A DNA stretch of 21,123 bases from a virus. Below are positions 1,533 through 11,814 of this stretch, in pieces. The translations under genes were made by a program, and so were the position numbers. Numbering within the stretch: the stretch's first letter is position 1; each line of letters opens with the position of its first letter. The DNA lies in the IMG/VR virus record IMGVR_UViG_3300031688_000168, positions 1-21,123 of that record. One strand, 5' to 3'. The notes below the pieces were generated by a model. That model saw only the letters and a list, made by a program, of their open reading frames with translations, was not told the origin of the DNA and searched no databases.

Positions 1533-4500
1533 ATGGCAAATATTCAAAGAAATTTTATCGCAGGGAGAATGAATAAGTCTCTTGACGAAAGGCTTATACC
1601 GAATGGTGAATATGAGGATGCATTAAATGTAAGGCTAGGATCAACTGAAGGGTCTGAAATTGGTTCTGTAGAAAACTCAAAAGGTAATACAAAACTTACT
1701 TCTCTTCAATATGAAGAAACAGGATCTACTGAGGGATCTACTTTATTAAGTGCTCAAGCAAGATGCATTGGTTCGTTTGAAGATGGTAAAAATAATCGTA
1801 TTTATTGGTTTGTTCATGATCCAGAGTTTACTGTAGGACCTACTGGTAAAATAGATCTTATTGTTTCTTTTAATCCAACTACACAAAATTTAATTTATCA
1901 CGTTGTAAGTATTAATGATGGATTTTCTTCTAATACAACTTTAAATTTTAATCCTAAATTTTTAATAAATGGGATTGACCTAGTGGATAATTTATTGTTT
2001 TTTACAGATAATGTAAATCCACCTAGAGTTATAAACGTTACAACAAATTATTCAAATCCTGTTTTTAATAATGATGTTATTACAGCAGAGCAATTGATGG
2101 TAATAAAAAAACCACCTGTAGAATCTCCTGTACTTAATTTATTGTCTCAATCTAATTCTTTACAAGATGATTTTTTAGAAACAAGATTTATTTGTTTTGC
2201 TTATAGATATAGATATTCTGATGGTGAGTTTTCAGCAACATCTCAATGGAGTCGTCCTGCTTTTGCCCCAGGGTTTTTTAATTATAATTTTACTGATAAT
2301 TTAAATCAAGGAATGCTAAACACGATTACTTCGATAGGTATTCAGTTTGATTCCGGAAGTTCCTTAGTAACTGGCATACAACTTCTTTATAAAGAAAGTA
2401 CTGATAGTACTATAAAAATAATAGATACTTTTAATAAGTCTATTCAAGGATATGCAGATAACACTAAATATTCTTTTTCTTTTAATAGCAGTAAAATATT
2501 TACAATTCTTCCACCTACAGAACTATTAAGGCTTTACGATAATGTTCCATTACTTGCTCAAGCTCAAACAGTTATGAGCAATAGGTTGGTTTATGGTAAC
2601 TATATTGAGGGTTATGATTTAAAAGATGTTTTTAACGTGCCTATTCAACTTAATTATGTTACAGGGTTAATTCAAGGGGAAATAAAACAAACCGCTTTAA
2701 CTTCTACAACTGAATCTGGAAATTATACTTTTGGAAGTACTCAAACAATTCCTAACTCAGTAGCAGTTATTGATTTTAGCTTAATAGATCCCCTTACAGA
2801 ATTAATAGCAGGATCTTCTATAAATATTAATTTTACATTTGAGCATTATAGTTTTGATCCAACTGCAGGAGAACCTACTACTATTACAAATAACATAAAT
2901 ATTAATTTTGTTTTTGATTTACCAGGAAATTACAATTCTGTTTATGACATGGTTTTTTCTAATGATTTTAAACAAGCAATAGGAACAGTAGCAAATATAA
3001 AACCTGTTTACGCTGCTTCTGGAGAAACATCCTGTGATGGATTTACTTTAACTGATAATATAAATTGTTTAATTTCAACAACTCTTGATTTACCATCAAC
3101 GGGCACGGTAACAAAGTTTCAAAGCGGAATAACAGCTGCTAATCAGCCCATAAAAATTATTGATAATGATCCAGGAGTAAATAAATTAAAGCTTCAAATG
3201 CCCGCAATGAGGTTTGTTGCTGATCCTACCGCACCTGTTTCTGGATATTATGAGTATTATAAAGTAATATCAGTAGAATCAGTGTATACTAGCAATGGCA
3301 ATCCATCAAGCTTGCACAGTAACAGGGGCTATGAAATAGGAATAGTTTATATGGATGAATTTTTAAGATCATCCACTGCTTTAGTTAGTCCTACAAACAC
3401 AATTCAAATTCCATGTTCTGCTTCTGTTAATCAAAATAAAATAGAGGTTACTATACCCGCTGTTCAAAGAGCTCCTTACTGGGCTAATCGTTATAAGTTT
3501 GTTATAAAACCAACTAAGTCAACTTATGAAACTATATATTCAGAACAATATTTTAAAGATCCAAGATCTAATAGTTATTTCTTTTTATTAGAAGGAGAAA
3601 ATGCAGCAAAAATTGAATCTGGTCAAAGGCTTATCGTTAAAAGAGACACATCTGGTCCACTTACTCAATGTGTTGAAGTAGTTGTTATTGATAAAAAAGT
3701 TCAAACTAAAGATTTTTTAGAAATAATAAATCCTCTTGGTCCACCTTTGTCAAATCCAATACCCGTAGGATATTATATTAATGTGCCAGCTGGACCTTAT
3801 ATGGAAATAATACCTAACGGAATTAACATTAATAAGAACGATGGATTAGGAGGAGATTCAATATCCTATCCATCAAATACAATTTCTTATCCGGGCAATA
3901 AACATCCCGAAGGTTTTGCTATAGGTCAATTTAGAGTTAATATTGAAAACCCTGACACAACTGCCGCTGCTAATGCAGCATATTTAGACTACTCTATTCC
4001 TCAAGGAAGCGTTATAACCATATCCATAAATCAAACTATGCTGGGGGCTAAAGGCCTTATTTCCTCACAGGAAAGAAACAATTTGTATGAGTCTCCACCG
4101 TTAATTGCATCGACAAATTACTCTAATTTTAAATCTTGGTTTGATGGTGATAACATTGGTGAATTAATCACACGAGACAGTACGTCTGATCAAACAGGTT
4201 CAGCACCTACTAATACATATCTTTCAACTGAATTACTTGTTGGTGGTACTAGTGGAGTAGTTCCTTTGTCTAGAATCACAAAAGGTAATGCTAGTAATTC
4301 TATAATTCCTCTTTCTGATAAGGTACTTACTTATCAATTTTACAGAAGTGATCCCGCAAATAATGGAGATAATTCTTTGTGGTTTTTAGCAACAGGTTTT
4401 CAAAGTCAAAACGCTTTTACAAGCAGCAGCTCTGTAGTGTCTATTAATATTACTGTTCAAAGAGCTAATGAAGGTGGTTTAGTGGTTTTTGAAACTATTC

Positions 4501-7271
4501 CATCAGATGCTTTGTCTGATGTTTGGTATGAAAATGAAGAGTCATTTGAAGTTAATGACATTGGGGAGCATGAGGGTTCATTAGGATGGCAAAATATTAG
4601 TACCAACACTTCGGCGATAGTTAAAACAAGTTTTTTTGATTGCTTTTCTTTTTCAAATGGAGTAGAAAGCTATACTATAAGAGATTCAATAAAAGGGGAA
4701 GCATTTGCTTTAGGTAATAGAGTAACAACAACTTCAGAGCAAGAATATAAAGAATCACATAGATTTGCAGACCTTACTTACAGTGGCATATTTAATGATG
4801 AATCTAATGTAAATAGATTGAATGAGTTTAACTTAGGACTTTTAAACTTTAAACCACTTGAAGATTCTTTTGGATCAATACAAAAGTTATACGCTAGACA
4901 AACAGACATACTCACGCTTCAAGAAGATAAGATTTCTTATGTACTAGCGGGAAAAGATTTACTATCAGATGCAGGAGGAACAGGAGCATTAACATCTGTG
5001 CCTACTGTACTGGGTCAGCAAATAGCTAGACTAGAAGAGTTTGGTATAAGCAGAAACCCTGAAAGCTTTGCAGTTTTTGGAGCAGATAAATTTTTTACAG
5101 ATGAGCAGCGAGGAGTTGTTATTCAATTAAAGGGTGGTGCTTACAACAATGAATCTCTTGCTGTTATATCTGAAACAGGAATGCGCGGATGGTTTAGAGA
5201 TTTGTTCCATGATAATTTTGATTCACAAAAATTAGGCGGTTTTGATCCTTACATGAATGAATATGTTTTATCTGCTAATAGCATTAAACTTCCATTTGCT
5301 GGGAATTGTGATGTTTGCGGAAGTACAAGAAACGTAAGTATAGAACAAGGAAAAGTATTTTCTTATTGTGTAGATGTTACTCAAGAAGTGGGAACTGTAG
5401 AAATAGAGTATGTTATTCCTTCTGGAGGAAACGACAATATTATAACTCAAGACAACACTCCTAATGTGGGTGGAGGTCTAGTCAAGATGATCACAGAAAC
5501 TGGATCAAATGATCCATTAGGAAATGACATTGTTATTGAAGATTCTACTAATAATAACACATATACTATTTCTGCGTTTTATAATGGAATTAAAACTACA
5601 GTAACAACAAATGTAAATGGAATTTTAATAGTAGATAAAAATTCTGTATATGCAGATAATTTAACTGTAATTGTTTCTTCAAATAGTATTACGTCAGACA
5701 CTTTAGAAATCACAGTAGGGTGTCCAGTAGCAGATAATATAACTATATTTAATGTTACCATTACAAGTAACTCTGATAGAGATAAATTAATTCATAATCA
5801 ATATAGATGGGACGATTTACCTTTTAGATCTGCACCTCAAGGTAATCAAGTTAGGTTTAAGTCAGGACTTCAAAATCCATTACAATCTCAATTTATTGAA
5901 TTAGAAGCTCCACAAGGAGCAAACCTCATTCCTGGGAATGGATCAACAGTTTCTATTATTAGTCATAAAATTCCTGGAGAAGATAATTACGATTTTCAGC
6001 CTAATACAAATAATTTTAGATATTTAAGAACATCTACTTTTTATGGAAAATCAACAACGGAACTTAATGCTCTCCTAGCCGCTTCTACTATAGCTAGACC
6101 AATGAGTATAACTCAAGCTCCTGCAATATATTCGGCAGATTTCGTAATGCCAACAGGAGGCGCTAATGATTATCTTTATTTAATATGGGATTATAGAAAT
6201 TCTACTCGGATACAATTGTGTTTTTCTAATGTAAGCGCAAATAACGCGTGTTGTGTTGGCTGTAATGTTGATATAAACCCTGACACGACCACTGTTATAC
6301 CTGGTAAGATATTATGTAAAACACACACATTGACTTCGCCTTCAGAGTGTATTACTTATTCTTTAAGAAATGACGATAGTGGAGGTGCGAGTACTAATGT
6401 AGACTATACTAAATGTATTCAAGGAACACCTGGAGTTGTAAGAAATTTATTTCCAGATTTACTCCCGTCACAAGAGCCTGAAGTATGTTCCTCTACAGTT
6501 CCAGTTTTTGATAATGGAAACGGAACTCCTCAAGCAGGAGCAGCATGCGGAGGTTCTTCTAATACTTTTAATTGGTTGTCTTGCGATGGTGTAACTGAAA
6601 ATACCGAAACAGTTCAAGCAGGAAAAAATAGTGTAGTTTGCAGTCAAAGTATACCTATAAGAACATTAGGAACTAGCGGAACAATAGTTGGAGGAGCGGT
6701 ATGCTCAGAATATTACTATAAAGCAAATAATTGTAATGAATCATCAGATATAGCTACAGTATTTTTGTCTGCAAATAAAATCTTAGGACTTTATAATATA
6801 GGAAACGTGGTTTATTATGATGAAATAAATTTAAGCGGTTCTAATATTAGTACAAGAAAATGCGCAACAATAACAGAAAGAAATATTGGAAATGGAGCCA
6901 ATGGAGAAATATTAGGAATATCTATAGGATGTCAAGACACAACTTACTGTCCATCTCTTTTAGACAATACTCCGGTTTGGATGTTTGATTTAAATGAAAA
7001 TCAAGGATCATCTACAGCTCCTACTCCTAACAGTGCACGTTGTGTCATTCCAGTGTTTACTAGCATAAGAATAATAGCTGATTTATTTGATGTTAATACT
7101 TTATTTTATGTTAATAGGGCATTAAATACGCCTTTTAATGGAAATAATAAGTTTTTCGCTTTTCGACAACCCCCTCCTGCTCCTGCACCGCCGTTTGCAG
7201 AACAAGGTTTTCCGCAAGGATGGATTCAGATAGATAACAATGGAAGAGTATTGGCATATCAAAATTTTTAA
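1533..7271 (+). CDS. Giant tail protein, crAss-like muzzle/stabilization type with Cys-rich C-terminus
   Basis: This 1912-residue protein begins with a signature (residues 1-53, including QRNFIAGRMNKSLDERL and VENSKGNT) that I recall from marine flavobacterial phages. The central part, around residues 1115-1240, has the blocks KLYARQTD, LQEDKISYVL, GISRNPESFA (1171-1180), FFTDEQRGVV and FDPYMNEYVLS, which match my memory of the crAss-like tail muzzle/stabilization protein, a likely counterpart of T7 gp12 at the end of the short tail. Much of the rest is Ser/Thr/Asn-rich and beta-prone. Residues 1573-1837 form a Cys-rich region with repeated Cys-aromatic patterns like those of the next gene. 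The last 75 residues hold a YVNRALNTPF module and a short proline-rich stretch near residue 1880. No enzyme motif is seen. Role: tail nozzle with attached surface or adhesin modules (inference). Confidence 0.85.
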   Translation: MANIQRNFIAGRMNKSLDERLIPNGEYEDALNVRLGSTEGSEIGSVENSKGNTKLTSLQYEETGSTEGSTLLSAQARCIGSFEDGKNNRIYWFVHDPEFTVGPTGKIDLIVSFNPTTQNLIYHVVSINDGFSSNTTLNFNPKFLINGIDLVDNLLFFTDNVNPPRVINVTTNYSNPVFNNDVITAEQLMVIKKPPVESPVLNLLSQSNSLQDDFLETRFICFAYRYRYSDGEFSATSQWSRPAFAPGFFNYNFTDNLNQGMLNTITSIGIQFDSGSSLVTGIQLLYKESTDSTIKIIDTFNKSIQGYADNTKYSFSFNSSKIFTILPPTELLRLYDNVPLLAQAQTVMSNRLVYGNYIEGYDLKDVFNVPIQLNYVTGLIQGEIKQTALTSTTESGNYTFGSTQTIPNSVAVIDFSLIDPLTELIAGSSININFTFEHYSFDPTAGEPTTITNNININFVFDLPGNYNSVYDMVFSNDFKQAIGTVANIKPVYAASGETSCDGFTLTDNINCLISTTLDLPSTGTVTKFQSGITAANQPIKIIDNDPGVNKLKLQMPAMRFVADPTAPVSGYYEYYKVISVESVYTSNGNPSSLHSNRGYEIGIVYMDEFLRSSTALVSPTNTIQIPCSASVNQNKIEVTIPAVQRAPYWANRYKFVIKPTKSTYETIYSEQYFKDPRSNSYFFLLEGENAAKIESGQRLIVKRDTSGPLTQCVEVVVIDKKVQTKDFLEIINPLGPPLSNPIPVGYYINVPAGPYMEIIPNGININKNDGLGGDSISYPSNTISYPGNKHPEGFAIGQFRVNIENPDTTAAANAAYLDYSIPQGSVITISINQTMLGAKGLISSQERNNLYESPPLIASTNYSNFKSWFDGDNIGELITRDSTSDQTGSAPTNTYLSTELLVGGTSGVVPLSRITKGNASNSIIPLSDKVLTYQFYRSDPANNGDNSLWFLATGFQSQNAFTSSSSVVSINITVQRANEGGLVVFETIPSDALSDVWYENEESFEVNDIGEHEGSLGWQNISTNTSAIVKTSFFDCFSFSNGVESYTIRDSIKGEAFALGNRVTTTSEQEYKESHRFADLTYSGIFNDESNVNRLNEFNLGLLNFKPLEDSFGSIQKLYARQTDILTLQEDKISYVLAGKDLLSDAGGTGALTSVPTVLGQQIARLEEFGISRNPESFAVFGADKFFTDEQRGVVIQLKGGAYNNESLAVISETGMRGWFRDLFHDNFDSQKLGGFDPYMNEYVLSANSIKLPFAGNCDVCGSTRNVSIEQGKVFSYCVDVTQEVGTVEIEYVIPSGGNDNIITQDNTPNVGGGLVKMITETGSNDPLGNDIVIEDSTNNNTYTISAFYNGIKTTVTTNVNGILIVDKNSVYADNLTVIVSSNSITSDTLEITVGCPVADNITIFNVTITSNSDRDKLIHNQYRWDDLPFRSAPQGNQVRFKSGLQNPLQSQFIELEAPQGANLIPGNGSTVSIISHKIPGEDNYDFQPNTNNFRYLRTSTFYGKSTTELNALLAASTIARPMSITQAPAIYSADFVMPTGGANDYLYLIWDYRNSTRIQLCFSNVSANNACCVGCNVDINPDTTTVIPGKILCKTHTLTSPSECITYSLRNDDSGGASTNVDYTKCIQGTPGVVRNLFPDLLPSQEPEVCSSTVPVFDNGNGTPQAGAACGGSSNTFNWLSCDGVTENTETVQAGKNSVVCSQSIPIRTLGTSGTIVGGAVCSEYYYKANNCNESSDIATVFLSANKILGLYNIGNVVYYDEINLSGSNISTRKCATITERNIGNGANGEILGISIGCQDTTYCPSLLDNTPVWMFDLNENQGSSTAPTPNSARCVIPVFTSIRIIADLFDVNTLFYVNRALNTPFNGNNKFFAFRQPPPAPAPPFAEQGFPQGWIQIDNNGRVLAYQNF

Positions 7272-7291: not shown

Positions 7292-9715
7292 ATGGCTACA
7301 GCTAATGAGTATTATATTGACACTTTAGATTTTTCAACTGCAACAGCAGTTTATACTGATGAAGCACTTACTACGTGCGCTGATAATGGGTTTTATCAAA
7401 TGGGTGGTGTAAATTCAAGAAAGCAAGTTGATTGTGTTAATGGTGTTGGCGGAAGACTTTTAGATGCTCAGGCTTGCGACTCATGTACACCTCCTACTCC
7501 AAGCGATAAACCTTTGCCTATTATTTCTTATAACGTGGTGGATACCATAACTCAAGTTAATGATAGGGTTATTTTTGATAATCGTTATGTTGAAAACACA
7601 TTAGTAACAACAAGTATAAATAATAATTGTTGGAATATAATATCACCAAGCACAGTTACAACTACTAATAATATTGTCACAACATGTATTATTCCTTCGC
7701 CGCAAGCCACTTCTTACTATGCGGTATACTCATGTCCTGACGGAACAAATAGATCTAGAGCATATACTTATATTGATCCTTCTTCTGATTCTCAATATTT
7801 TGATACGAACACAAATATTTATTATGTTTACACTGGAGAGAGTTCTGTTTTTAATCCTCCTCAAAATGAGGTAAATAATAATTTACAAAGAATAGGAACT
7901 GAAACTGGTTGTCCCACTCCAGAAATTGTATATACATATTGGACAATATCTGAATGCGACAATCCTTTGAGCTCTTTTATAATGAGAGCTAGTGCCACAC
8001 AAAATTTTGCAAATCTAGGGTCAGTTTCGGTAAAAACTATAGGCTCGGATATTTGTTATAGTCTGCAAAACCAAAGACAAGGAAGTTCTATAACTTATGA
8101 AAAATCATATGATAGTACATCTGGTGAATATACGGGATGTACTGAAGGCGCAACTCCTTGTGTACCACCTCTTGTAGTAAAAAACACTTTTCCTGTCAGT
8201 AGACCTGGGGTAGCTGATAATTTTGTTCAACAGAGCACTAGTAATCCTAGATCTCCTGGAGATAAAGTTATAACTAGCATAGATTCAGAGTGTTGGACTT
8301 TAGGAACAATTACCACTGGAAGCACATCAAATACAATAACTGATAATTGTCCTATACCTCCTGAATGTACTTTATATTCACTAGTTCCAGGCTCTGGAAG
8401 TACAGCAACAATATCGGGTAAATTATGTTCAAATGGAAATAATGCTAGTTTTACCTCATTAGTTGATCAAACATTAGTACAATGTTTTAAAACTGACAGT
8501 GCAACAGGATCTGGAGCCGGTAGTACTTTTACAACACTAGAACAATGCGTTGTAAACTCTGAACCTCAGCAATCGTATTGTCATTATGAAGCTATAGCTT
8601 GCGGACCTCCGTATGATTATACTATAATAATTGTTAGATCTTATGATTGTCTTCTTGATCAAACCATGACCTCAACAGGTAAAGCTGCGATTAAATTTAA
8701 TAACGGAAGTACATGTTATGAAATTATAGGTCGATCAAATCAACAGACTGAAACTAATACCGTAACATCAATTTTTAATAATGGTTGTTCAGAGTGTAAA
8801 CCTACACCATCAAATTGTTTTGAAATAACCGGAATTTATTCTAATCAATTTTTGGATTGCCTACCGCCAACAACTGGAAATACTTGGTATTCAAACAATG
8901 CTAATTTTGCTCTTGCTACTGAAATTTATTTAAACCCAGAAGATTGTGCAAATAAATCTTTAGCTCCTTCTGGAACATATACTGCAACAGTGGATGGTTC
9001 TGGTCTAGCTCCGCCATCTGCCGGACAAGTTTTAATATCCAGACTATACAACGGCGCTTTTAGAAGTAGTAATCCAACAAAAAGATGCTTTTCGGAAGGA
9101 GGAGTTGCTCCAGAACCTGATATTACAATTACTTTAACAAGCTATGATTTTTCAGATGTGGTTGGCGGATCTGTAGGAGAAAAAGATGAACCAGGGGCGG
9201 CTTTTTATGTTGATCCAGAGTTTACTGTAATAGGAGATTCAATAACTGAATCTCCAGGTAACCCCCCCGGAGGTCCATCTTCTTTTTTCAATGCATTGCC
9301 TTCTCCAGGGCGAGAGCAAGGAAAAGGACTCACAAGGCTTAGATTTAATCAAGGATGGCAAGGTATAGGGCAACAAAATAATGAATATGTTCCCAATAAT
9401 TGTTATTCTAACTGTAATGTTGCATGGAAAGTTAGTTTTTTTGTTACTCGAATAAACCAACCAACATTATATGTACAAGAATGTGATACTCTAAAAATGC
9501 ATACAGTTGCTATAGATCAGCTAGATAAAGATGAATTTAATGTAGTGGTAGGTACTGTTATTATTTTTACTGCCAGGGTGATCGCGCAATATGGAATGGC
9601 AAGTAATATAATCTTATGTGGGACAGTAATAACACTAGGTTCTGCTTACGGACCTGAAACTTTATTTATAGGATTACCTTCTTCTGGTTGTCAAAGTTCT
9701 GAATGTTTTCAATAA
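7292..9715 (+). CDS. Cys-rich modular tail surface/receptor-binding protein
   Basis: The 807-residue product contains about 34 cysteines, very high for a phage protein. The N-terminus (residues 7-65) has a module YYIDTLDF...AVYTDEALTT...GFYQ...CDSC, which I recall from flavobacterial surface proteins. Next come about five related segments with a Cys-(Trp/Tyr/Phe) pair followed 15-30 residues later by one or more Cys: around 113-132, 255-290, 334-359, 398-419 and 475-502. Two further Tyr-(Val/Leu)-(Asp/Asn)-Pro segments lie near residues 546 and 639. Ser, Thr, Asn and Gly are abundant, as expected for an extended beta-rich fibre or adhesin. It lacks a signal peptide, consistent with a virion component. 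It shares module types with the C-terminus of the preceding gene, which suggests the two act together at the tail tip. Receptor binding is inferred. A C7 tract lies at 9262-9268. Confidence 0.8.
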   Translation: MATANEYYIDTLDFSTATAVYTDEALTTCADNGFYQMGGVNSRKQVDCVNGVGGRLLDAQACDSCTPPTPSDKPLPIISYNVVDTITQVNDRVIFDNRYVENTLVTTSINNNCWNIISPSTVTTTNNIVTTCIIPSPQATSYYAVYSCPDGTNRSRAYTYIDPSSDSQYFDTNTNIYYVYTGESSVFNPPQNEVNNNLQRIGTETGCPTPEIVYTYWTISECDNPLSSFIMRASATQNFANLGSVSVKTIGSDICYSLQNQRQGSSITYEKSYDSTSGEYTGCTEGATPCVPPLVVKNTFPVSRPGVADNFVQQSTSNPRSPGDKVITSIDSECWTLGTITTGSTSNTITDNCPIPPECTLYSLVPGSGSTATISGKLCSNGNNASFTSLVDQTLVQCFKTDSATGSGAGSTFTTLEQCVVNSEPQQSYCHYEAIACGPPYDYTIIIVRSYDCLLDQTMTSTGKAAIKFNNGSTCYEIIGRSNQQTETNTVTSIFNNGCSECKPTPSNCFEITGIYSNQFLDCLPPTTGNTWYSNNANFALATEIYLNPEDCANKSLAPSGTYTATVDGSGLAPPSAGQVLISRLYNGAFRSSNPTKRCFSEGGVAPEPDITITLTSYDFSDVVGGSVGEKDEPGAAFYVDPEFTVIGDSITESPGNPPGGPSSFFNALPSPGREQGKGLTRLRFNQGWQGIGQQNNEYVPNNCYSNCNVAWKVSFFVTRINQPTLYVQECDTLKMHTVAIDQLDKDEFNVVVGTVIIFTARVIAQYGMASNIILCGTVITLGSAYGPETLFIGLPSSGCQSSECFQ

Positions 9716-9724
9716 TAAAATTAT

Positions 9725-9732
9725 TATATTTG
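9725..9732 (+). promoter_or_regulatory. Candidate Bacteroidota -7 box upstream of the glycosyltransferase
   Basis: TATATTTG followed by T matches the Bacteroidota sigma-ABfr -7 consensus TAnnTTTG. It lies in the 35-base gap between two genes, 18 bases before the glycosyltransferase ATG, so a transcript would have a very short leader. A clear -33 TTG at the usual spacing is not visible. The same motif occurs in the next two intergenic gaps, which raises confidence. Confidence 0.5.
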
Positions 9733-9750
9733 TATATAAAATCAAATTAA

Positions 9751-10977
9751 ATGAAATCTATTTTTGTGCAAATTGCGAGTTATCGTGATTCAGAACTTAT
9801 TCCAACAATTGATAATTTACTACAGAAAGCAAAAAATCCAGAACGTTTAAAAATTTGTATTGCTCATCAGTACTCAGAAGATGATGAGTGGGATAGGCTT
9901 GATAAGTATGCAGATGACTCAAGATTTATTGTTATACAAATACCTCATGATCAATCTGGAGGAGTTTGTTGGGCTCGTAATCAAATACAACAACATTATA
10001 ACGGAGAAGATTATACTTTACATTTAGATTCTCATCATAGGTTTATTAAGGACTGGGATGAAAAATGTATTAATATGCTTAGTGAATTGATAAAAAGCGG
10101 GATAGAGAAGCCTATGCTTACTACTTACTCTCCTTCTTATAATTCAAATACATATCCGGATTATATGGACGTAAACACTTATGGTATGCGTATTCATGAA
10201 TGGATAGATGGTGTTCCAATGTTTCATCCTAATAATCTTATAGATCTTACAAAGCCAATGCCTTCTAGATTTTATTCAGGACACTTTTCATTTACATTAG
10301 GAAAGTTTTGTAAAGAAGTTCCTCACGATCCTTTAATGTATTTTCATGGAGAAGAAATTTCAATATCTGTAAGAGCTTATACTCACGGGTATGATATGTT
10401 TATTCCTAACATTCAATTAATTTGGCATGAGTATAGAGCAACGGGAAGAAAAAGACATTGGGATGATCACCAAAACTGGGATAATAAAAATAAAATATCT
10501 AAATCTAGAGTTAGACAACTATTAGGTGTTGATGGTGAAGTGTGTTCGCCATGTAACGAAAACACATTTAAACTTTATGGTTTAGGAAAAGAAAGAACTT
10601 TAGAAGACTACGAGCTTTACGCTGGTATAAATTTTAGAAATCAGAGCGTTACTGTTAATTGTAAACAGAATCATTTTCCTCCGGGGCACAAGGACGATTT
10701 AATATATACAGAAAAAAAAACACATGCTGTAAAGTTAAATAAAAATGATTTCCCATACAACGATTATGCTTTTGCTATATTAGTATTAGAAGATATCAAA
10801 GGCGCTGTTGTTCACAATGAAACAATAGGTATAGACACTATTAAAGCTCTTCAGGAGAGCTCTAATGCATTTATTAATTTTAATAGTATAAGTACCGCAA
10901 AAAAACCTTTAAGGTATTTTGTGTGGGGTTATAGTGAAGACCATGGATGGGGTGATAAACTCATCAGTTATTTTTAG
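9751..10977 (+). CDS. GlcNAc-transferase-like glycosyltransferase (PF11397/GT60-type)
   Basis: The 408-residue protein resembles the GlcNAc-transferase family typified by Dictyostelium Skp1 GnT1 (PF11397, CAZy GT60). Visible family motifs are FVQIASYRDSEL (residues 5-16), GVCWARNQ (71-78), the metal/nucleotide-binding DxD equivalent LDSHHRF (92-98), YSGHFSF (175-181), YFHGEEIS (197-204), WHEY (225-228) and HWDDH (236-240). Family members transfer GlcNAc from UDP-GlcNAc to a hydroxylated protein acceptor in the cytoplasm; the donor and acceptor here are unknown. Residues about 290-408 form an additional C-terminal part that I do not recognise, ending in FVWGYSEDHGWGD. No signal peptide or membrane segment is seen. 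The gene follows a Ser/Thr-rich tail protein, so glycosylation of virion surface proteins is possible; modification of host glycans is an alternative. The start at 9751 fits the motif that begins at residue 5 and the upstream promoter-like site. Confidence 0.85.
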   Translation: MKSIFVQIASYRDSELIPTIDNLLQKAKNPERLKICIAHQYSEDDEWDRLDKYADDSRFIVIQIPHDQSGGVCWARNQIQQHYNGEDYTLHLDSHHRFIKDWDEKCINMLSELIKSGIEKPMLTTYSPSYNSNTYPDYMDVNTYGMRIHEWIDGVPMFHPNNLIDLTKPMPSRFYSGHFSFTLGKFCKEVPHDPLMYFHGEEISISVRAYTHGYDMFIPNIQLIWHEYRATGRKRHWDDHQNWDNKNKISKSRVRQLLGVDGEVCSPCNENTFKLYGLGKERTLEDYELYAGINFRNQSVTVNCKQNHFPPGHKDDLIYTEKKTHAVKLNKNDFPYNDYAFAILVLEDIKGAVVHNETIGIDTIKALQESSNAFINFNSISTAKKPLRYFVWGYSEDHGWGDKLISYF

Positions 10978-10985
10978 TAAATTTG
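10978..10985 (+). promoter_or_regulatory. Candidate Bacteroidota -7 box upstream of the 264-aa gene
   Basis: TAAATTTG followed by T matches TAnnTTTG and begins immediately after the TAG of the glycosyltransferase gene. The next ATG is 19 bases downstream. No convincing -33 element is seen because the upstream bases are coding. Support comes mainly from the same motif recurring in the two neighbouring gaps. Confidence 0.5.
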
Positions 10986-11004: not shown

Positions 11005-11799
11005 ATGCCTAATTATACACTTACATATAGCGAGACATCTAAAGGCTGGCCTTCATTTTATTCATTTGAACCTGAGATGATGAGCGGTATGAATAATTAT
11101 TTATATTCTTTTTCTGGAGGAAATATTTATCAGCATAACACTAATGCTGTAAGGAATAATTATTATGGTGTGCAGAGTTATTCTGAAATAACCAGTGTTT
11201 TTAACGAAGATCCTTTAGTAAACAAGATATTTAAAACAATAAATTTAGAATCAAACGCCGCATGGGCATCTGCACTAGAGACAGACTTACCTAACACAGG
11301 TTTAATTGGTTTAGAATGGTTTGTTCAAAAAGAAGGCGACTGGTTTGCCTACATAAGAAGTGTTGGGGGTGATCCAGCAGCGCTTACAGAGTACGCCTTA
11401 CGATCAATGAATGGTATAGCACAGAGTTTGTCTGTAACAGGAACTGCTAATACTCCAATTATAAATTTTGCTACTACTATAAATATAGGGAATATAATAA
11501 GTATAGGAGATAGCCTGTATTCTGTTAACCCTCCTTACACGGGTCCTACCTTAGTGGGAACGGTAACGGATATAGAGGCTGACCTAGTTAATAATATAAA
11601 CAGGATTACGGTAGATGCAACAGTGGCTGGTGGTGCAGCACCCACACTTCAAGACTCTTTTATTTTATATATTAAAAATCAAGAGGCTGAGTCACATGGA
11701 CTCTTAGGACACTACTTGAGGTTTATTCTTCAAAATAATGCAACGATAGCAACTGAGCTGTTTGCTGTAGAGTCTCAAGTTATAAAAAGCAATCCTTAA
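11005..11799 (+). CDS. Conserved phage protein of unknown role (264 aa)
   Basis: I recognise this as a family recurring in the structural regions of marine Bacteroidota phages, recalled from memory and not searched. The N-terminal half carries characteristic blocks: KGWPSFYSFEPEMM (residues 13-26), MNNYLYSFSGGNIYQHN (29-45), RNNYYG (50-55), KIFKTINLESN (74-84) and a WFVQKEGDWFAYIRS stretch (105-119). The C-terminus has SHGLLGHYLRFILQNN (230-245) and ELFAVESQVIKS (251-262). Between them, about residues 150-222 are beta-prone and Gly/Thr-rich, like an inserted domain. There is no signal peptide, membrane helix or catalytic motif. It lies between a glycosyltransferase and a GNAT-like gene and has its own candidate promoter. 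A virion or tail accessory role is likely from location and family, but the specific function is unknown. Confidence 0.75.
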   Translation: MPNYTLTYSETSKGWPSFYSFEPEMMSGMNNYLYSFSGGNIYQHNTNAVRNNYYGVQSYSEITSVFNEDPLVNKIFKTINLESNAAWASALETDLPNTGLIGLEWFVQKEGDWFAYIRSVGGDPAALTEYALRSMNGIAQSLSVTGTANTPIINFATTINIGNIISIGDSLYSVNPPYTGPTLVGTVTDIEADLVNNINRITVDATVAGGAAPTLQDSFILYIKNQEAESHGLLGHYLRFILQNNATIATELFAVESQVIKSNP

Positions 11800-11806
11800 A
11801 AATTAG

Positions 11807-11814
11807 TATCTTTG
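11807..11814 (+). promoter_or_regulatory. Candidate Bacteroidota -7 box upstream of the GNAT-like gene
   Basis: TATCTTTG followed by T matches TAnnTTTG and lies in the 22-base gap, ending only 7 bases before the ATG at 11822. Transcription starting the usual few bases downstream would give an almost leaderless message. No clear -33 TTG is visible at standard spacing. It is the third copy of the motif in three consecutive gaps. Confidence 0.5.

Follow-up and report, generated by a model that had tools for sequence, protein, structure and literature searches.

Background

Mucin-type O-glycosylation is initiated by polypeptide GalNAc-transferases. Among GT60 enzymes, Skp1 Gnt1 of Dictyostelium and Toxoplasma is cytoplasmic, while the mucin enzyme of Trypanosoma cruzi acts in the secretory pathway. 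GT60 is an established family whose members include Skp1 Gnt1, with hydroxyproline as its target, as well as a polypeptide GlcNAc-transferase of T. cruzi (PMC6939170). Glycosylation of phage virions is also already known, from few cases. In mycobacteriophages it is found on the C-termini of capsid and tail-tube proteins (Freeman et al. 2023, as cited in PMC12619734).

The locus presented here resembles the mycobacteriophage case in that glycans on phage structural proteins are predicted, here from genes. It differs from that case by an adhesin cassette with a GT60-like enzyme and, in sister phages, by a prolyl-4-hydroxylase-like enzyme. No description of a phage tail cassette combining prolyl hydroxylase, GT60 and an adhesin with Thr/Pro (TP) repeats was found in the openly accessible papers searched, and this cassette of the sister phages appears to be undescribed.

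The phage and its tail-gene slot

The window, i.e., the whole stretch of DNA analysed, is a 21-kb virus fragment from IMG/VR (IMGVR_UViG_3300031688_000168, positions 1-21,123). It has the crAss muzzle C-terminal domain (PF25729), and its structural genes are arranged as they are in phi13:2 and elemo, which by sequence places its source among marine crAss-like, Pachyviridae-related phages. The closest named relatives are Caudoviricetes sp. ctfjg026, the Flavobacterium elemo phages, and Cellulophaga phi13:2. The genes concerned are the following.

1533..7271, + strand: muzzle-like virion ORF of 1912 aa, left border of the slot (phrog_14478, virion structural protein, E 9e-209)
7292..9715, + strand: Ser/Thr/Asn/Cys-rich adhesin-like protein of 807 aa, the proposed acceptor, with homologues in the same slot
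9751..10977, + strand: GT60-like (PF11397) glycosyltransferase of 408 aa, ATG start, intact ORF, identified by profile, motifs, and fold
11005..11799, + strand: separate ORF of 264 aa with the muzzle C-terminal domain (muzC), right border of the slot (PF25729, E 4.3e-18; 80 homologous loci)

The slot between the two muzzle ORFs is filled by the adhesin and then the glycosyltransferase. An earlier note on this DNA had placed the enzyme in the tail module, directly after a Ser/Thr/Asn-rich protein. Both statements are borne out: the muzC domain follows, the left neighbours of the 1912-aa ORF also match virion-structural PHROGs, and the 807-aa adhesin consists of 21% Ser+Thr, 7.8% Asn, and 4.2% Cys.

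While elemo and phi13:2 (Pachyviridae and kin) share the structural gene order around the muzzle with the window, their slot is empty and has no glycosyltransferase. In the elemo phages one muzzle ORF spans both flanks (the 1912-aa ORF and muzC of the window), and in phi13:2 the muzzle exists as two ORFs with 3 bases between them. The slot of ctfjg026 holds a 183-aa ORF annotated as 'putative glycosidase'.

A GT60-like glycosyltransferase

By Pfam PF11397 ('GlcNAc'), which serves here as a proxy for CAZy GT60, the enzyme is GT60-like (E 5.8e-72, 243.5 bits, with a curated cut-off of 21). It also matches PHROG 24687 ('glycosyltransferase') over its whole length (E 4.9e-144). PF11397 matched 0 of 14 control genomes. 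Three motifs are found.

10027..10044, + strand: DSHHRF, residues 93-98, containing the predicted DxH metal/nucleotide-sugar motif (D93, H95)
10345..10356, + strand: HGEE, residues 199-202 (G200-E201-E202 at least 90% conserved in 40 homologues, invariant in 29)
10423..10434, + strand: WHEY, residues 225-228 (E and Y vary)

In the alignment of 40 homologues, D93, H95, R97, F98, and H226 are invariant. The earlier note had called the enzyme GT60-like from these motifs, and had named their loss (DSHHRF or HGEE) in intact relatives as evidence that would speak against its reading; such loss was looked for in the 40 homologues and did not occur. The DSH motif is, we assume, common to GT60 enzymes and the window enzyme.

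Searching the PDB by sequence, with the single protein as well as with a profile, gave no meaningful match, and therefore a fold search was needed. The AlphaFold model (40 sequences; mean pLDDT 91.6) has a predicted GT-A fold with the DxH motif, similar to protein glycosyltransferases. Among its PDB fold matches, every one of the first 45 is a polypeptide GalNAc-transferase (best E 5e-12). This family, GT27, is thus the nearest solved fold and has a DxH-type motif, but its solved chains show no sequence match, its C-terminal region is different, and the TM-score is ~0.5. Profile and predicted fold together support membership of a protein-glycosylating family.

With Skp1 Gnt1 and the T. cruzi UDP-GlcNAc:polypeptide alpha-GlcNAc-transferase, the window enzyme shares a profile match far over the cut-off. 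In contrast to these relatives, its donor, linkage, and acceptor are predictions, and it lies in a phage tail cassette without Skp1 and has an extra C-terminal region (residues ~300-408). Its peak 19-residue hydropathy is 0.94, indicating that it is without a membrane anchor, and no signal or membrane segment was found in its sequence. Presumably it resembles the cytoplasmic Gnt1 in this respect. The earlier note had said that characterised relatives work in the cytoplasm, which is right for Skp1 Gnt1 but not for the secretory-pathway enzyme of T. cruzi.

Slot contents in related phages

A scan with muzC yielded 80 loci. The order of the window (muzzle, adhesin of 730-807 aa, glycosyltransferase of 407-408 aa, muzC) exists in 16 of them (L178-L193; window clade), of which L178 is essentially the window itself. 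Co-occurrence of the enzyme with the 807-aa gene, proposed earlier as a check, is therefore seen in 16/16 window-clade loci. Of the other 64 loci, 28 have neither TP repeats nor enzymes, and their adhesin is short or missing. The remainder carry enzymes, which by Pfam are 2OG-Fe(II) oxygenase (PF13640), PF11397, O-FucT (PF10250), and Gly_transf_sug, as well as carbamoyltransferase, epimerase/dehydratase, FkbM methyltransferase, and radical SAM/SPASM proteins.

A stretch of 20 residues counted as a TP run when it contained 15 or more S/T/P, among them 6 or more P and 5 or more S/T. With ORFs called mechanically and only complete loci counted, all 27 loci with a TP run have modification enzymes, while the 42 loci without one comprise 28 enzyme-free loci and 14 of the window clade. 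Repeats thus go with modification enzymes as a rule. The window clade, with a GT60-like gene but no repeats, is the sole exception; two members (L185 and L187) barely attain the TP-run threshold. When lineages were clustered at 80% muzC identity, which leaves them partly non-independent, Fisher tests against TP runs gave p 4e-5 for enzymes (8,0;2,15) and 1.7e-5 for the oxygenase (7,1;0,17), and the GT60-like gene alone was not significant (3,5;2,15; p 0.28). This last result, the exception formed by the window clade, and the absence of TP repeats from the window adhesin count against adhesin glycosylation.

The L222 oxygenase has prolyl 4-hydroxylases as its best PDB relatives (E 2.4e-27), and human and Chlamydomonas enzymes match too. 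In seven phage copies HxD and the distal H and K positions are invariant, a pattern which we take to be the 2OG oxygenase motif. This prolyl-hydroxylase-like oxygenase (PF13640 match) is encoded together with a GT60-like gene in L215, L222, L198, and kin. Sister phages would thus combine the transferase with a prolyl hydroxylase, presumably as for Skp1, or with Thr/Pro-rich repeats, presumably as in mucins. The window lineage differs from the Skp1 hydroxylase-Gnt1 pathway in that no prolyl hydroxylase was detected. Since neither the window slot nor any of five window-clade contigs, one of them 60 kb long, yielded a PF13640 match, Thr/Ser is the likelier acceptor in the window rather than hydroxyproline, as far as fragmentary contigs and divergent hydroxylases allow.

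Three side observations concern these relatives. A radical SAM/SPASM gene lies between the prolyl-hydroxylase-like and GT60-like genes of a TP-repeat cassette (L222:7135-8043) and may add a further peptide modification. A 147-aa ORF precedes the long GT60-like gene in a TP-repeat sister lineage (L202:4248-4691 and kin). Two contigs assigned to MAGs of Planctomycetaceae (TMED10) and Gammaproteobacteria (L258, L268) carry TP repeats, a GT60-like gene, and muzC, and are really phages of the window's family.

A candidate site in the adhesin

Pfam and PHROG gave no match for the 807-aa adhesin, and no TP run, i.e., no mucin-like tandem repeat, was found in any ORF of the window. Slot adhesins have a common N-terminal domain ending in Cys, immediately followed by a linker or repeats. 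After this Cys, L222 has TVPTPTPTPTPTPT, L233 has SAPIPTPPPVPTPPTP, and the window has a short linker.

7487..7519, + strand: Pro-rich mini-linker TPPTPSDKPLP, residues 66-76, candidate glycosylation site at the position of the relatives' long TP repeats

Other window-clade adhesins have [VSA]KPSPDPTP at this site, while enzyme-free loci are nearly Pro-free there (e.g., SIPCGGT). The Pro-rich linker has been kept although the rest of the window-clade adhesins is hypervariable (median identity 40%). Its conservation at the TP-repeat site is suggestive of a glycosylation site, in a pattern that follows phylogeny and may reflect shared ancestry.

GT60-like genes in other phages and in bacteria

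In a tree of 94 glycosyltransferases, the window clade is sister to those of L004 and L202-L208 (support 0.98), where the structural ORF preceding the transferase contains ~30-56 TPT motifs. Short GT60-like enzymes (~275 aa) co-occurring with the oxygenase form a separate clade (support 0.99). When GT60-like loci from viral contigs were dereplicated, 4 of the 20 clusters had an ORF with a TP run directly upstream of the GT60-like gene (permutation p 0.004): L004 and three from other kinds of phage (L010, L046, and L052). A reverse scan with a TP-repeat DNA pattern found a GT60-like gene on 6 of 120 contig pieces; having no background rate, it is not counted as evidence. TP-rich ORFs near bacterial homologues were set aside likewise, these genomes being GC-rich and no background rate being at hand.

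In L202-L208 the TP repeats sit within the muzzle ORFs on both sides of the transferase. The window's 1912-aa muzzle ORF is Ser/Thr/Asn-rich too, and its variable C-terminal part tracks the transferase as well as the adhesin does. It could be, then, that the enzyme acts on a different virion protein (muzzle or capsid) and not on the 807-aa adhesin. We consider this improbable since it is the adhesin that adjoins the transferase and that bears TP repeats in several relatives.

Another possibility is that the enzyme alters host surface glycans or glycoproteins, e.g., for superinfection block, with its place among tail genes incidental. Homologues occur in many bacterial genomes (222 candidate stretches were confirmed), family members in other phages adjoin carbamoyltransferases, HtrL/YibB, and further sugar genes, and the window gene apparently has its own promoter-like element. 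The earlier note had offered host-glycan alteration beside decoration of the phage's own tail. The former found no support and is unlikely: the enzyme is without signal or membrane segment, it stays between two tail ORFs in all loci of the window clade, and the loci of this phage family that lack both TP repeats and window-clade membership are free of such enzymes. The latter is favoured by the structural slot, the missing anchor-strength hydrophobic stretch, the enzyme family, and the way enzymes track Thr/Pro-repeat adhesins. As a whole, the earlier reading is thus supported in part: the GT60-like call and own-tail decoration are supported, the host-glycan alternative is not, and a cytoplasmic setting does not hold for all relatives.

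Bacterial carriers of GT60-like genes include Burkholderia, Chitinophaga, and Verrucomicrobium (genome contig loci L259-L337). In L007 and L014-L044, tandem or paired GT60-like genes have DNA polymerase B, UvsX, and sugar genes of the HtrL/YibB type as neighbours. That many GT60-like genes of other phages adjoin DNA polymerase, UvsX, and further sugar genes rather than tail genes is another point against adhesin glycosylation.

DNA-modifying phage glycosyltransferases are known (cited in PMC12619734), and with some GT60-like pairs next to DNA polymerase and UvsX genes, glycosylation of DNA or nucleotides has to be considered. It is very improbable here. The fold is nearest to protein transferases, the slot is structural, and no thymidylate-synthase-like gene was found in the 60-kb window-clade contig and three other contigs, where controls were positive. 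A weaker point is that no Tet/JBP gene was found in the same contigs by a search without positive control.

Selection and co-variation

Between window-clade pairs dN/dS is 0.04-0.17 for the glycosyltransferase and 0.16-0.61 for the adhesin, which implies strong purifying selection on the former. The clade lacks TP repeats and the oxygenase while its sister transferases have TP neighbours, as would be expected if the enzyme had outlived a TP-repeat substrate and now did little. Given this selection and motifs intact across the clade, such a relic or bystander role is highly unlikely.

Between L180 and L181, muzC hardly differs (dS 0.01) and the adhesins are divergent (dS 0.66, dN 0.40). The transferases of the two phages are nearly identical as well, so that the adhesin alleles look as after recombination or allele swap. 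A transferase kept while adhesins change fits an enzyme working on a common linker. Pairwise identities of the transferase correlate with those of the adhesin (0.86) and of muzC (0.89); since muzC is tracked equally, these correlations do not single out the adhesin.

Promoter-like elements

Elements of the type TAnnTTTG, which resemble the Bacteroidetes -7 element, precede three genes.

9725..9732, + strand: TATATTTG, promoter-like element of this type preceding the glycosyltransferase; the related TAnnTTnGTAnATA precedes 12 of 16 window-clade glycosyltransferase genes
10978..10985, + strand: TAAATTTG, promoter-like element preceding muzC (TAnnTTTG match)
11807-11814: element preceding a 136-aa ORF (TAnnTTTG match)

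Ahead of muzC, TAnnTTTG occurs in 49/52 loci with enzymes and in 0/28 without, against a background of 60/499 at other ORF starts. As the element tracks the enzyme cassette, a promoter that restarts transcription at muzC may have arrived together with the cassette. Matches in a sigma-70 promoter scan were no commoner than chance.

Proposed mechanism and implications

The explanation that we favour, and think probable, is cytoplasmic O-glycosylation of the window's tail adhesin prior to assembly. The GT60-like protein glycosyltransferase would be made in the cytoplasm alongside the tail proteins and would transfer a sugar, by family alpha-GlcNAc from UDP-GlcNAc, to Thr/Ser of the Pro-containing linkers in the 807-aa adhesin, which would then be built into the virion. 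Enzyme identity, catalytic motifs, purifying selection, slot, adhesin linkage, and the repeat-enzyme association are read from sequence, and the fold is predicted. The benefit might be protection from proteases, a stiffer linker, or adjusted receptor binding.

Related phages would have an extended version: their adhesins, of the same family, bear long TP repeats, which would be modified by a prolyl-4-hydroxylase-like oxygenase together with several transferases and tailoring enzymes. A broader view, held tentatively and short of probable, is that a family of marine crAss-like phages has a swappable tail cassette whose prolyl-4-hydroxylase-like oxygenase, together with transferases of GT60-like, O-fucosyltransferase-like, and other kinds, attaches glycans to hydroxyproline or threonine in the TP repeats of the adhesin. 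Such a cassette would be the viral counterpart to the Skp1 and mucin/extensin pathways, with the window as a reduced, GT60-only form.

The analysis suggests that these crAss-like phages sugar-coat the host-contacting part of their tail. This marine phage group has many metagenomic members, and in it the arrangement of the genes allows enzyme, acceptor, and even sites to be predicted, and lineages with both repeats and enzymes to be told from those without enzymes. Why a phage should glycosylate its host-contacting part becomes a testable question, with protease shielding, linker stiffness, and receptor choice as candidate answers. A further suggestion is that the coupling of proline hydroxylation to glycosylation, which has been studied in eukaryotes, may operate in phages too.
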